Shown here piece after piece: positions 33,275-38,781 of a stretch of DNA of 40,358 bases. The notes beneath the pieces are model-generated. The model was not told the DNA's origin and ran no database searches. It saw only the letters and a program-made list of their open reading frames with translations. Each line of letters begins with the position of its first letter. The first letter of the stretch is position 1. The position numbers and the translations under genes were made by a program. The DNA comes from Defluviitaleaceae bacterium (lineage in GTDB: Bacteria; Bacillota; Clostridia; Lachnospirales; WRAX01): the NCBI GenBank assembly GCA_009780415.1, contig WRAC01000022.1, positions 1 through 40,358 of the forward strand, read 5' to 3'.

Positions 33275-34387
33275 TTAATACAGTTCTTTATAAATATCGA
33301 AAACATCTTTTTCGGTAAGCTCTGCGTAATTATTTCCCATCAGCCGTCCCTGCCGTGTCATTACATTTTCGGTAAAGGCTTTCAGATCGTCCCCGGTAAC
33401 GCCGTATTCGCGTAAAGGTTTGCGCAGGATGATACTTCCCAGCAGTTTTTCCATTTCGGCGTACACCTCGCTCTCGCCGCATTCCAGTATATTCGCGATA
33501 AAACGGTTCAAGCGGCTGATTTTACCCGCGGGGTCAATGCTCATGTACTTGTTGAATACGCCTATCAGCATGCAATAGTTGGCTTCCCCGTGCGGTACGT
33601 GATACATGCCGCCCAGAGGATAGCTCATGGCATGGACAGCCGCGCAGCCGGCGTTGCCGAAGGATATCCCGGCGTATGCGCTTGCGATTAGAAAATCCTT
33701 TAACATCGGCATTCTCGCGTCCTGACCGTCGCGGGCAATAACGCGGTACGCCGTTAAAATCATGCGGATGGCCTCGTAACCGAACAACTCGGTAAAAGGC
33801 GTCGCTTTCGGCGAAAGGACGGATTCCAGCGCGTGGATCAGCGCGTCGATGGAGCTTGTGGCGAACACGGCGAAGGGCAGGCCTTTCAACAGCTCGGGTA
33901 TAAGCACCGCGCTGTCCGCGTACAATTCGTCAACCGCAAGCCCAAGTTTGGTTTGCCGGCTTTTAAGCTCCAAAATGGATATATTGGTAACCTCGCTGCC
34001 CGTGCCGCATGTGGTGGGTACAAGAACCAGCTCTTTAGCCTTCTTTATCTCAAGCTTGCGGTCAAATAAATCCTGAACGGGAGAAACGTTTTTCAGCGCG
34101 AACAGCTTTGAAACATCAAGAACCGTACCGCCGCCGATTGCTATAATGCGCTTATAATCCTTTTTTATGCCGGCGTACATGGCTTCCGCCATTTCATCGG
34201 AGGGCTCGCCAAGGCCGTATTTTTCCTGAAGCATAACATCGGCCTTGATATCAAATCCGCCAAAGTGCGGTTTGAAAATATGCTCGTTTGTAATGATCAA
34301 ATCATTTTCGCCAATCTCAAAGGCTTCAATGAAAGCCTTGCATGTATCGTATTGATAAATTACGGGTTTAACAATAAGCTGGCGCAT
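33275..34387 (-). CDS. 4hbD: NAD-dependent 4-hydroxybutyrate dehydrogenase
   Basis: A 370-residue iron-containing (type III) alcohol dehydrogenase. The NAD site is AIGGGTVLDVSK and the TTCGTGSEVT block follows it. Metal ligands lie in SSIDALIHALES and in AVHAMSYPLGGMYHVPHGEANY. In this operon it would reduce succinate semialdehyde to 4-hydroxybutyrate; the assignment over other type III dehydrogenases rests on the four neighbours. GGGGAGGG precedes the start, 11 bases after the CoA-transferase stop. It is the last gene of the operon. Confidence 0.9.
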   Translation of the reverse strand: MRQLIVKPVIYQYDTCKAFIEAFEIGENDLIITNEHIFKPHFGGFDIKADVMLQEKYGLGEPSDEMAEAMYAGIKKDYKRIIAIGGGTVLDVSKLFALKNVSPVQDLFDRKLEIKKAKELVLVPTTCGTGSEVTNISILELKSRQTKLGLAVDELYADSAVLIPELLKGLPFAVFATSSIDALIHALESVLSPKATPFTELFGYEAIRMILTAYRVIARDGQDARMPMLKDFLIASAYAGISFGNAGCAAVHAMSYPLGGMYHVPHGEANYCMLIGVFNKYMSIDPAGKISRLNRFIANILECGESEVYAEMEKLLGSIILRKPLREYGVTGDDLKAFTENVMTRQGRLMGNNYAELTEKDVFDIYKELY

Positions 34388-34398
34388 AATGCCCTCCC

Positions 34399-35700
34399 CT
34401 ATCCCTTATATTTACACTTGAATTTTTTCTCGAAAAACCCAATCAGCTCCGGGCGGAAATCCGGGTGCGCGAGCTTTATCAAAAGTATTGCGCGCTCGCG
34501 GAGGTTTACGCCGGAGAGGTTGGCTATGCCGTATTCCGTTACTATATACTGCACATCGTAGCGGCTGGTTGTCACCGCCGCGCCTTCGTCTATTACGCTT
34601 ACGATTTTGGACACCCTGCCCTTCGCCGTGGACGGCATGGCAATGATGCTTCTGCCCCCTCGGCTGAGCTGCGCGCCGCGCACAAAATCCACCTGCCCGC
34701 CCACGCCGCTTAGCTGGTTATGCCCGACGGAGGCTGAAACCACCTGGCCCATCAAATCCACCTGTACGCAGGAGTTTATGCTTACTAAATTGTCGTTTTG
34801 GGCGATAACCAGCGGGTTATTGACATAATCCGCCGGGTACATCGCAACGCCGGGGTTGTCGTTCACGAAATCGTACAGACGCTGCGTGCCGATAAGGAAA
34901 TTCGCGATCATTTTACCGTTGTGCAGCGTTTTCATTCTGTTCGTGATAACTCCGGCTTCCGCAAGGTCAACCACACCGTCTGAGAACATTTCGCTGTGGA
35001 TACCCAGATCGCGTTTGCCCGTCATAAACGACAGCGCCGCGTCCGGTATCGCGCCGATGCCCAGTTGCAAGCAATCGCCGTCATTTACCAGAGACGCGCA
35101 GTGTTTCCCTATCTCCTTCTCAACATCGGAAATTTTCGGGCGGGCAAGCTCTTTCAACGGCGCGTCATGCTCAACAATACAGCGCATTTCACTCACATGT
35201 ACATAAGAACTGCCATGGGTGCGCGGCATGTGCCTGTTTACCTGGCAAATAACCGTTTCCGCCTGTTTTACCGCTTCCAGCGTATAATCGACGGAAACGC
35301 CCAAGCTGCAATAACCGTGCGCATCCGGAGGGGAGACGGAAACCATCGCGGCATCCGGCCTGCATTTTGTTTGCAGAAGCAGCGGTATCTTATGGAAGAA
35401 TACCGGCACTATATCCGCGCGGCCTTCCGCGCAAGCTTCGCGGGTTGAGCCGCCCAAGAACAGCGCGTTATGCCTGAAATGCCCCTCCATGCCGGGCGCG
35501 CAGTAGGACGATGTTCCCATCGGCAGCATATGCATGATTTCAACGTTTTCATAGGCTTTGGCGTTCTCTGCCATTGCGTCAACCAAATGGGACGGCTCCC
35601 CGGCGGCATGGCCAATAACCACGCGGTTGCCTGATTTTATCAGCTTTACAGCCTCTCCGGCCGTTGTCAGGCGTTTTTTATAGATTTCCTTCCACTCCAT
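34399..35700 (-). CDS. abfT: 4-hydroxybutyrate CoA-transferase
   Basis: A 433-residue family I CoA-transferase of the acetyl-CoA hydrolase/transferase group. The catalytic glutamate is Glu237 in GIHSEMFSDG. GIGAIPDAALSF and the C-terminal GGQVDFVRGA and EYGIANLSG blocks are typical. It would move CoA from acetyl- or butyryl-CoA onto 4-hydroxybutyrate, giving the dehydratase its substrate. AAGGAG lies about ten bases before the ATG. The start lies inside the end of the upstream small gene (23-base overlap). Confidence 0.92.
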   Translation of the reverse strand: MEWKEIYKKRLTTAGEAVKLIKSGNRVVIGHAAGEPSHLVDAMAENAKAYENVEIMHMLPMGTSSYCAPGMEGHFRHNALFLGGSTREACAEGRADIVPVFFHKIPLLLQTKCRPDAAMVSVSPPDAHGYCSLGVSVDYTLEAVKQAETVICQVNRHMPRTHGSSYVHVSEMRCIVEHDAPLKELARPKISDVEKEIGKHCASLVNDGDCLQLGIGAIPDAALSFMTGKRDLGIHSEMFSDGVVDLAEAGVITNRMKTLHNGKMIANFLIGTQRLYDFVNDNPGVAMYPADYVNNPLVIAQNDNLVSINSCVQVDLMGQVVSASVGHNQLSGVGGQVDFVRGAQLSRGGRSIIAMPSTAKGRVSKIVSVIDEGAAVTTSRYDVQYIVTEYGIANLSGVNLRERAILLIKLAHPDFRPELIGFFEKKFKCKYKG

Positions 35701-35956
35701 GTCCGCACTCCTTTTTTATGCGATCCAAAACCTCCGTGTAGCCGGTTTCGTTTGTCACCACAAGCTTCCCCAAGCGGCCCGCGCTATGCCCTATCCCCGT
35801 GCAAGCCCGCGCGCATCCGCAGATAAACAGCGCGAAACCGCCGTCTTTAAGGTTTCCGAATTGAACCTCGGGCATGTCGGTTTTAAGCCGTTCAACCAAT
35901 CCGGAGCGGTCAAAATGCGGGTTACACCCGCCGCAGTATTTTACGCCGACTTTCAT
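35678..35956 (-). CDS. Small cysteine-rich protein in the 4-hydroxybutyrate operon
   Basis: A 92-residue protein with no assigned function. Cysteines are at 8, 11, 46, 48, 52 and 84, in YCGGCNPHFDR and FICGCARACTG, which suggests a metal or Fe-S site or redox chemistry. Its ATG follows the abfD stop with no gap, and its 3' end overlaps the CoA-transferase, so expression is tightly coupled to the pathway. From memory, a small unnamed gene holds the same position between abfD and the CoA-transferase in Clostridioides difficile. It could serve AbfD maturation or protection, but this is inference. Confidence 0.85.
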   Translation of the reverse strand: MKVGVKYCGGCNPHFDRSGLVERLKTDMPEVQFGNLKDGGFALFICGCARACTGIGHSAGRLGKLVVTNETGYTEVLDRIKKECGHGVEGNL

Positions 35957-37405
35957 TTATTCTTCAATATGCGCAATGGCTTTTGCAAGTTTCTTCTTCA
36001 TCTCAATATTACCCTGCCGCGCTATCATAATGCGCTGCGCTTGTGGGGAACCCGCTCCGTGCATGGATTCCGTACGGTACCCAACCGCCGCCGTGCCTAA
36101 CGCGAGGTTTTCGATAAGGCGTAAAATCCTCAAACGGTTTTCCGTTGAAACGCAGTCAACGCCGCGCAGGTATTTGTCTATGTATTTGCCCAGATACGGG
36201 TCGCGCAGGTCTTTCTCGGAGGGCGCGGTCACCATCAGTCCGCCGGCTATATCCTCGGCAAGGCGCACTATCTCATATGGGAAACGCGTAACGTTCTGCT
36301 TGCAAACATTCGCCAGCAGCAGATCTATCATATAACTGCCCGCCGCCGTGGGGCACCCTTCCGCGGATCAGGCAATACCGCATGAATAAAGGGTTTCGTT
36401 AAGATGTGTCATTTCGATAAGCTTATCCTTGATATGCGAAGCCTTTGCCGCCCCGTTATAGTCCGCCGCAACAGCCGCCGCGCCGATAAGCACGTCGCCC
36501 ACACCCACCTTACAGCCTCCGTAGCTCTGGCGGTGGTACCCGGCGAAGCGCTCAACCAGCATACCGGCAAATTCCGTCTCTCCGTTCAGGAAAACACGCT
36601 CATTCGGCACAAATACATCGTCGAAGATCACAAGCGCTTCCACGCCGCCGAATTCGGCGTTGCCCACATCCATGTCGCTTCCCTCGGTTCTGCGCGTATC
36701 GCAGCTTTGGCGGCCTATTATCATAAATACGCCCTCCGCGTCCATCGGCACGGCGAAAGCCACGGCGTAATCCTTGTCGGCTTCCTGCATGGCCTGGGTG
36801 GGCATGACGATCATTTCATGGGAGTTCAGCGCGCCCGTCTGATGCGCCTTTGCGCCGCGCACAACGATGCCGTCCGGCCTGCGCTCAACCACGCGAAGGT
36901 ACATGTCGGGATCCTTCTGGGCTGAGGGGGCAAGGGAGCGGTCGCCTTTCGGGTCGGTCATCGCGCCGTCAACGGTTAAATCGTTGTCCTGGCAGTATCT
37001 AAGGAATTTGTTGAAGTTTTCATGATAGCTGGTCCCGCATTTTTTATCCGTCTCGAAAGTAGTGCTGTAAACGGCGTTAAACGCGTCCATCCCGACGCAG
37101 CGCTGGAAGCATGAAGCCGTCTTTTGCCCCAGCAGCCGCAGCATCTTCACTTTTTTAACCAAGTCGTCCGCGCTGCGGTGGATATGGGTGAAACGGTTGA
37201 TTTTACGCCCGTCGTCTTGTACAACGGTCATTAAGTCCTCATACTCCGGCATATGCGCCAGGTCATACGTCATGCGCACGGAATTAAGGGAGGGCCGCAG
37301 GATTGGGTCGTCTACGGGGGATTCAACCTCTTCCCCGAACATATAGACCTTCATCTTCAGGCTGCGGATGCTTTCTATATATTGCTCGCCCGTCATAAGC
37401 GCCAT
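35957..37405 (-). CDS. abfD: 4-hydroxybutyryl-CoA dehydratase with one in-frame TGA
   Basis: Dehydrates 4-hydroxybutyryl-CoA to crotonyl-CoA using FAD and a [4Fe-4S] cluster. Read through the TGA at 36368-36370 it is 482 residues, equal to the family length (about 484). All four cluster ligands known from Clostridium aminobutyricum are kept: Cys99 and Cys103 in SCFQRC, His291 and Cys298 in YHRQSYGGCK. The TGA is codon 346, in SCGIA-stop-SAEGCPTAAG, and strong similarity continues to the end (NVTRFPYEIVRLAEDIAGG, GYRTESMHGAGSPQAQRIM). The Clostridium enzyme, as I remember it, has Cys there, so selenocysteine is possible; a nonsense mutation or sequencing error is the alternative. AGGAGG precedes the start. 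Without readthrough the product lacks its last 137 residues. Confidence 0.85.
36330..36379 (-). other. In-frame UGA codon with GC-rich hairpin potential
   Basis: The UGA is followed after 12 bases by a possible hairpin, UGCCC and GGGCA around a 9-nt loop containing GG. A competing fold pairs GCCUG, which spans the UGA, with CGGGC downstream and has inner CCGC/GCGG pairs. The 11-12 base spacing resembles that of bacterial SECIS elements, but GC-rich codons can make such stems by chance. The strand is that of abfD. Confidence 0.4.
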
Positions 37406-37419
37406 TGTGCTGTTCCTCC

Positions 37420-38781
37420 TTATTCGCCCCAGATTTCTTCGTCCGTAGGTATTTTAGCGTCTTTGTTGAATAATCCGATTTGTGATATGTTGATTAAATG
37501 CTTGTAATCCAGGTTTTCCGAAATGCTGTTGTTGCCCCAGGAGCCGCAGCCCAGCGTCGTCGTCGGGGCGAAGCCGTTGTACAGGCTGCCGCCCGTGCTG
37601 GTAGAGGATGGCTGGTTTACGGTTAGCCGGCTTATGGGCAGTTTTTCGCCCGCCTTGCGTATGTTGTCCATATTATTGGAATGAATGGAGCAGGAATGGC
37701 CTATACCCTCGACGAGCAGGTTATCGTGGGCGATGCGTATCGCTTCGTCAAATGTGCCGTAGGGAAGCGCTATCATAACGGGGCACATTTTTTCTTTGCA
37801 AAGGATGTCGGCGGTTCCCACGCCCCGCGCTTTCAGCAGTATCATTTTTGTCCGGTCCGGTACGCTTACGCCGGCTAATTCCCCAAGCTTTTGCACGCCT
37901 TGCCCGACGGCGGCGCGGTTGAATGAATCTTCGCTAAACAATGCCTTTGCGAATTTATCCACGTCGGCGGGATCGTCTATGTAGTATGCTCCGCTTGCAC
38001 GGAAGGCTTCGATTGCCCTGTCGTAATCATCGGCGGGTATGATGGCGCACTGCTCGCCCGTGCAGATGATGCCGTTGTCGAATACGCGCCCGGCGATTAC
38101 CTTTTTTGCCGCTTCGTTATAGTCTATGCCCCGGTCAAAGATAACCTGCACATTACCCGGTCCTACGCCCAGCGCGGGTTTTCCGCTTGAATACGCCGCC
38201 TTGACCATGGCGCCGCCGCCGGTTGCGACCACCACATCCGCCAGCCTCATTACCATGTTCGTGTCGTCCATTGTGGGCGATTCCACGGTTTGGATAAGGT
38301 CTCCGGGCAGCCCCAGCGATTCCAGTTCCTTGCGGAAAAGCCCCACCAGATATTTATTGACATTCTTAACCTTAGGATGGGGCGCGATAATGATGGCGTT
38401 TTTACCCTTCAACGCGAACATGGCGTTGCACATGGGGGTTACGATGGGATTGGTTATCGGCGTAACCGCGCCCACAACTCCCATGGGCTTGGCGATTTTT
38501 ATTATGCCTGTCTCTTTGTTTTCCTCAATTATACCATAGGATTTTTTACCTTTCAGACTGTTCCATATTGATTTGGACTTCCCCCTGTTTTTAACAACCT
38601 TATCTTCGTAAACACCGATTCCCGATTCATCCACGGCCATTCTGGCCAATTCCTCGGCTAAATCGTACACAACACGGCCAATCCGGCGCACCGCGGCATC
38701 GGTCAGGGACTGATCGGCCCTCAACTCAAATTCCGCCTGCGCTATGCGCGCCCTTTCAAACATTTCAGAAACGGTTGCCAT
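37420..38781 (-). CDS. sucD: CoA-acylating succinate semialdehyde dehydrogenase
   Basis: A 453-residue CoA-dependent aldehyde dehydrogenase. The catalytic cysteine is Cys240 in FDNGIICTGEQ; GVVGAVTPITNPIVT and GVGPGNVQV are typical of the SucD/PduP/AdhE-N group. In this operon it would reduce succinyl-CoA to succinate semialdehyde, the entry step. The ending LGCGSWGNNSISENL is shared with SucD-type enzymes. It is the first gene of the operon, with AAAGGAG before the start and a near-consensus promoter at 38818-38846. abfD starts 15 bases after it. Confidence 0.92.
   Translation of the reverse strand: MATVSEMFERARIAQAEFELRADQSLTDAAVRRIGRVVYDLAEELARMAVDESGIGVYEDKVVKNRGKSKSIWNSLKGKKSYGIIEENKETGIIKIAKPMGVVGAVTPITNPIVTPMCNAMFALKGKNAIIIAPHPKVKNVNKYLVGLFRKELESLGLPGDLIQTVESPTMDDTNMVMRLADVVVATGGGAMVKAAYSSGKPALGVGPGNVQVIFDRGIDYNEAAKKVIAGRVFDNGIICTGEQCAIIPADDYDRAIEAFRASGAYYIDDPADVDKFAKALFSEDSFNRAAVGQGVQKLGELAGVSVPDRTKMILLKARGVGTADILCKEKMCPVMIALPYGTFDEAIRIAHDNLLVEGIGHSCSIHSNNMDNIRKAGEKLPISRLTVNQPSSTSTGGSLYNGFAPTTTLGCGSWGNNSISENLDYKHLINISQIGLFNKDAKIPTDEEIWGE

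Follow-up and report, generated by a model that had tools for sequence, protein, structure and literature searches.

The abfD gene of an anaerobic Defluviitaleaceae bacterium, which encodes 4-hydroxybutyryl-CoA dehydratase and lies in a 40,358-nucleotide stretch of DNA (the window), is interrupted at codon 346 by an in-frame TGA, and we consider the most probable reading, at roughly 55%, to be that this UGA is decoded by insertion of selenocysteine (Sec) rather than resulting from a recent nonsense change or a sequence error. This reading is favoured by the intact frame, the pairing of the TGA with a Cys in related proteins, a full Sec machinery, the presence of further Sec genes in this genome and the lack of decay beyond the TGA. 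Counting against it are the occurrence of the TGA in only one sequence, taken from a draft genome, the absence of a strict SECIS element, the replaceability of the Cys position and the U directly 3' of the UGA, UGA followed by U being a strong termination context. In the proposed scheme, a one-base change in the lineage would have converted a TGC or TGT Cys codon to TGA, SelB with Sec-tRNA would read UGA 346 as selenocysteine by way of a short hairpin after the UGA, and the full-length enzyme would be produced.

The gene runs on the minus strand from 37405 to 35957, and the plus strand of that interval is not open. As the initial annotation had proposed, a single TGA splits an otherwise intact abfD: the read-through frame holds exactly one TGA, in the peptide context NETLYSCGIA-U-SAEGCPTAAG, and gives a protein of 482 residues. 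The Pfam domains HpaB_N and HpaB cover this protein from end to end, in agreement with the claim that family similarity extends to both sides of the TGA, and the four Fe-S ligands named in that annotation (Cys99, Cys103, His291 and Cys298) are all present and invariant or nearly so among homologues. The read-through protein therefore has both the full-length HpaB fold and the ligand set of AbfD. The genome has no second abfD beside this TGA-bearing copy.

Table 1. Features in and around abfD, in positions of the window.
Feature	Position	Strand	Basis or remarks
CoA-acylating aldehyde dehydrogenase, probably succinate-semialdehyde dehydrogenase (by context)	37420..38781	-	intact, directly upstream of abfD
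abfD, 4-hydroxybutyryl-CoA dehydratase, 482 codons with read-through	35957..37405	-	frame, solved relatives, Pfam
In-frame TGA, codon 346, aligned with conserved Cys	36368..36370	-	frame and homologue alignment
Weak SECIS-like hairpin, not significant	36334..36358	-	stem UGCCC/GGGCA, loop GGCG, 20 nt after UGA, -7.2 kcal/mol
92-aa Cys-rich protein (CGGCNPHFDR)	35678..35956	-	ATG start abuts abfD stop; conserved at same place in genome G860
abfT-like 4-hydroxybutyrate CoA-transferase	34399..35700	-	butyryl/acetate CoA-transferase family, below equivalog cut-off
abfH-like iron-containing 4-hydroxybutyrate dehydrogenase	33275..34387	-	family match; partner in G860 operon

The genes surrounding abfD are packed tightly in the order aldehyde dehydrogenase, abfD, Cys-rich protein, CoA-transferase and iron alcohol dehydrogenase, and no gene among them is broken apart from the TGA of abfD, so that the operon is, as had been stated, otherwise complete. 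From abfD onward, the last four genes occur in identical order in G860, where abfD is 87% identical, the CoA-transferase adjoining it is 73% identical to the abfT-like protein and the counterpart of the abfH-like dehydrogenase is likewise 73% identical. By homology and context, the operon would constitute the succinate/4-hydroxybutyrate branch of butyrate formation. The small Cys-rich protein (MKVGVKYCGGCNPHFDRSG...) has no Pfam or NCBIfam match; its G860 counterpart, 42% identical, occupies the same position between abfD and the CoA-transferase gene.

To place codon 346 among related genes, we searched about 1,700 genomes, from collections covered in part, and obtained 93 homologues whose identity is 50% or higher and in which this codon could be read. 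Cys is encoded in 90 of them (47 TGC, 43 TGT) and Ser in the remaining three, so abfD shows one of the marks used to recognise selenoprotein genes, an in-frame TGA opposite a conserved Cys. Distant HpaB-type relatives mostly carry Ala here, and also Ser. The initial annotation had suggested asking whether the TGA recurs in relatives; it does not, as no other AbfD homologue found in the roughly 1,700 genomes has TGA at codon 346. Recurrence in other species supports a Sec assignment but does not strictly define one. A scan of viral contigs also found nothing. When genome contigs were searched with a degenerate DNA pattern built on the sequence around the TGA, the pattern proved too loose, returning chance matches, and among the matches listed no locus examined encodes AbfD. 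An AbfD-like protein of genome G1322 (38% identity) was rejected as a second case, its TGA lying near the N terminus and the residue aligned with codon 346 being Ala; this paralogue is split by the TGA on contig C35 at about 1534-1556 (L223).

A quick tree places the TGA form within the Cys forms, its sister group being six Cys-bearing members of family f73 with 86-87% identity. Since these six belong to another order, the tree suggests horizontal transfer of abfD. The frame had been described as continuing unbroken past the TGA, and we see no decay there: protein identity to the nearest relatives is 0.87 before the TGA vs 0.88 after it, and deviations at conserved columns number 0/58 after the TGA and 1/137 before. 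Coding sequence conserved on both sides of the TGA, a second mark of selenoprotein genes, is thus found in abfD. Therefore, if abfD is dead, its death was recent. A recent nonsense mutation, in which the Cys codon became a real stop that leaves a dead fragment of 345 residues and blocks the 4-hydroxybutyrate pathway in this strain, would account equally well for the lack of decay and also for a TGA confined to one sequence and missing from the other homologues. We regard this as a possible but less probable account than Sec insertion, and the intact remainder of the operon speaks against it.

We next considered what residue 346 may do in the protein. The AlphaFold2 model of the read-through AbfD has a pLDDT of 91 and a TM-score of 0.98 to its closest solved relative, the Clostridium aminobutyricum enzyme (PDB 1u8v), with which it shares 72% identity and all four Fe-S ligands. 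Residue 346 does not bind the Fe-S cluster and occupies the non-ligand Cys position of a CxxxC motif; in the model it is located near where helix 323-348 ends. The reading CGIAC-SAEG that the initial annotation gave for the C. aminobutyricum protein at this point was accurate, as 1u8v has CGIACSAEG, with Cys opposite the TGA, where the present gene has CGIA-TGA-SAEG. In contrast, the archaeal 4-hydroxybutyryl-CoA dehydratase of Nitrosopumilus maritimus (PDB 6vjr, whose title calls the enzyme oxygen tolerant), which shares fold and family with the present AbfD, has Ser at position 346 and Ala at that of Cys342 (AAGIASS). Cys346 is thus widely kept yet replaceable, and by comparison of these sequences not essential, which would also suit a nonsense change at this codon. 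Since Ser stands at this position in 6vjr and in three bacterial homologues, a direct part of residue 346 in the radical flavin/Fe-S mechanism appears doubtful. The proposal of a Sec at a conserved Cys in a radical flavin/Fe-S enzyme is therefore supported as regards the conserved Cys (90/93) and lacks support as regards a role in the radical chemistry. A redox-protective or near-neutral swap of Cys for Sec seems likelier than a new catalytic role.

Judged by its genes, the organism uses selenocysteine. All four components that the initial annotation had proposed to look for are present: selA (505 bits, curated cut-off 268) and selB (318 bits, cut-off 242) on the same contig, selD (359 bits, cut-off 125), which carries its own Sec TGA in HCSGGGU-GAKVG, and a tRNA-Sec that scores 64 bits against the Rfam cut-off of 47 and is called by ARAGORN as tRNA-SeC with anticodon tca. 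A genome devoid of Sec machinery, which that annotation had named first among the findings that would refute its proposal, is thus not what we see. In addition, grdA has a Sec TGA in CFV-TGA-TAAGAMD and matches PF04723/NF040748, while grdB has one in ILTST-TGA-GTCTRCG and matches PF07355/TIGR01917, both genes being complete with Sec. Like abfD, these three genes for the known clostridial selenoproteins GrdA, GrdB and SelD have an in-frame TGA in this very genome, in their case at a Sec site; unlike AbfD, they belong to recognised selenoprotein families in which Sec is catalytic or redox-active and many members contain it. The genome also holds an mttB of the pyrrolysine type (L255:691-2169, contig C9), with an in-frame TAG at about 21674 (SYLAGG-TAG-TDSKLGDEQAG) and a TIGR02369 match above cut-off. 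With grdA, grdB, selD and this TAG-bearing mttB, the genome seems to make use of Sec as well as pyrrolysine.

The UGA might instead be read by other means, through near-cognate decoding by Trp or Cys tRNA or a general reassignment of UGA. Bacteria do show some basal UGA read-through, but the genome has a Sec-tRNA for UGA, and TGA ends other genes as an ordinary stop, in line with the earlier statement that the code is not reassigned; we consider these modes of decoding very improbable.

A search for a SECIS element, which had been suggested as a check on Sec insertion, did not help to separate the remaining readings. Under the published bSECIS rules (apical loop of 3-9 nt with a G in the first two, stem of at least 4 bp, 16-37 nt, at most -7.5 kcal/mol; PMC13188914), no hairpin after the abfD UGA passes in the strict form, the near miss listed in Table 1 being all that was found. 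Of the known Sec genes, selD and grdB have clear elements by these rules and grdA has none. Since grdA (L242:615-1085) is a true case by family match, the model fails on some genuine selenoprotein genes. Of 1,500 ordinary Cys codons in this genome, 38% pass a looser SECIS model and 40% reach a score as good as that of abfD; because so many pass, the search is powerless here, and nothing discriminates abfD from ordinary Cys codons, which leaves room for a nonsense change. A first, loose SECIS score that had ranked abfD best of 92 homologues rested on an apical stem of 2 bp beside a bulge of 5 nt and did not survive the published stem rule. RF00031 (SECIS_1) had no match anywhere, controls included, and an Rfam scan of abfD gave a chance match only.

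To estimate how often genes of this genome are broken, we scanned 1.66 Mb, with about 1,420 genes of at least 100 aa, for internal stops preceded by about 15 coding codons and followed by 40, limits that make the scan less than exhaustive. Each stop that lacked a Shine-Dalgarno start close by was examined individually; grdA had been set aside by the start filter. The internally cut genes were grdB, abfD and mttB (by TAG), plus grdA. Apart from abfD, none of the genes scanned was found to be cut by a lone TAA, nor by TAG or TGA outside known recoding sites, and the remaining stops were ordinary gene junctions, one dipeptidase-like fragment and short low-quality frames. The fragment, on contig C6 at about 35207, comprises 68 residues similar to the C terminus of an amidohydrolase/isoaspartyl dipeptidase; it lies in frame past a TAA behind a peptidase gene and looks like a gene remnant.

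Since the scan shows no other gene with a lone stop, the background of nonsense genes is low, bounded by the rule of three at about 0.2% per gene, which argues against a nonsense mutation in abfD. The position of the stop does so too: a single base change can create a stop in abfD in 148 ways, of which 11 turn Cys into TGA, seven of these affecting a Cys that most homologues share, and a random nonsense change would strike a conserved Cys as TGA only about 5% of the time. Such coincidences would number at most about 0.2 per genome, which is low, though not negligible across the many genomes read. The same scan bears on a one-base sequencing, assembly or strain-mixture error, with Cys in the true gene. 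The TGA form comes from one sequence only, in a draft assembly of 85 contigs with 1.05% contamination, and TGA is one base from TGC and TGT, but the base error rate looks low because no other isolated broken gene was seen in 1.66 Mb; we hold an error to be improbable.

Finally, the statement that no Sec form of this family had been described agrees with the literature we searched. AbfD is not among the 119 prokaryotic selenoprotein families and subfamilies in Table 1 of a 2026 inventory (PMC13188914); the words 'dehydratase' and 'hydroxybutyryl' are absent from the main text of the deep-Sep paper (PMC12013277) and of PMC9312934, PMC1088965 and PMC1794560; and the open-licence papers in which 'selenocysteine' occurs together with '4-hydroxybutyryl-CoA dehydratase' are, to judge by their titles and abstracts, unrelated. 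AbfD may thus be a previously unlisted selenoprotein. That it is the first Sec-containing 4-hydroxybutyryl-CoA dehydratase, derived by a recent Cys-to-Sec conversion at the non-ligand Cys of the CxxxC motif in a genome that also has a pyrrolysine-type mttB, is a proposition to which we give even odds.

Taken together, our results make the TGA of abfD a genuine and well-placed Sec candidate, with the machinery, the pairing with Cys and the conservation in place and recurrence lacking. If the change is a nonsense mutation instead, the lesson concerns false positives in Sec predictions from single genomes. If the Sec reading is true, the prokaryotic selenoproteome would gain an enzyme class with radical chemistry, and annotation pipelines would be seen to truncate key fermentation enzymes of Sec-using anaerobes. 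A Cys-to-Sec conversion would also have been caught at a probably non-catalytic position, providing a test of whether Sec spreads by near-neutral change.
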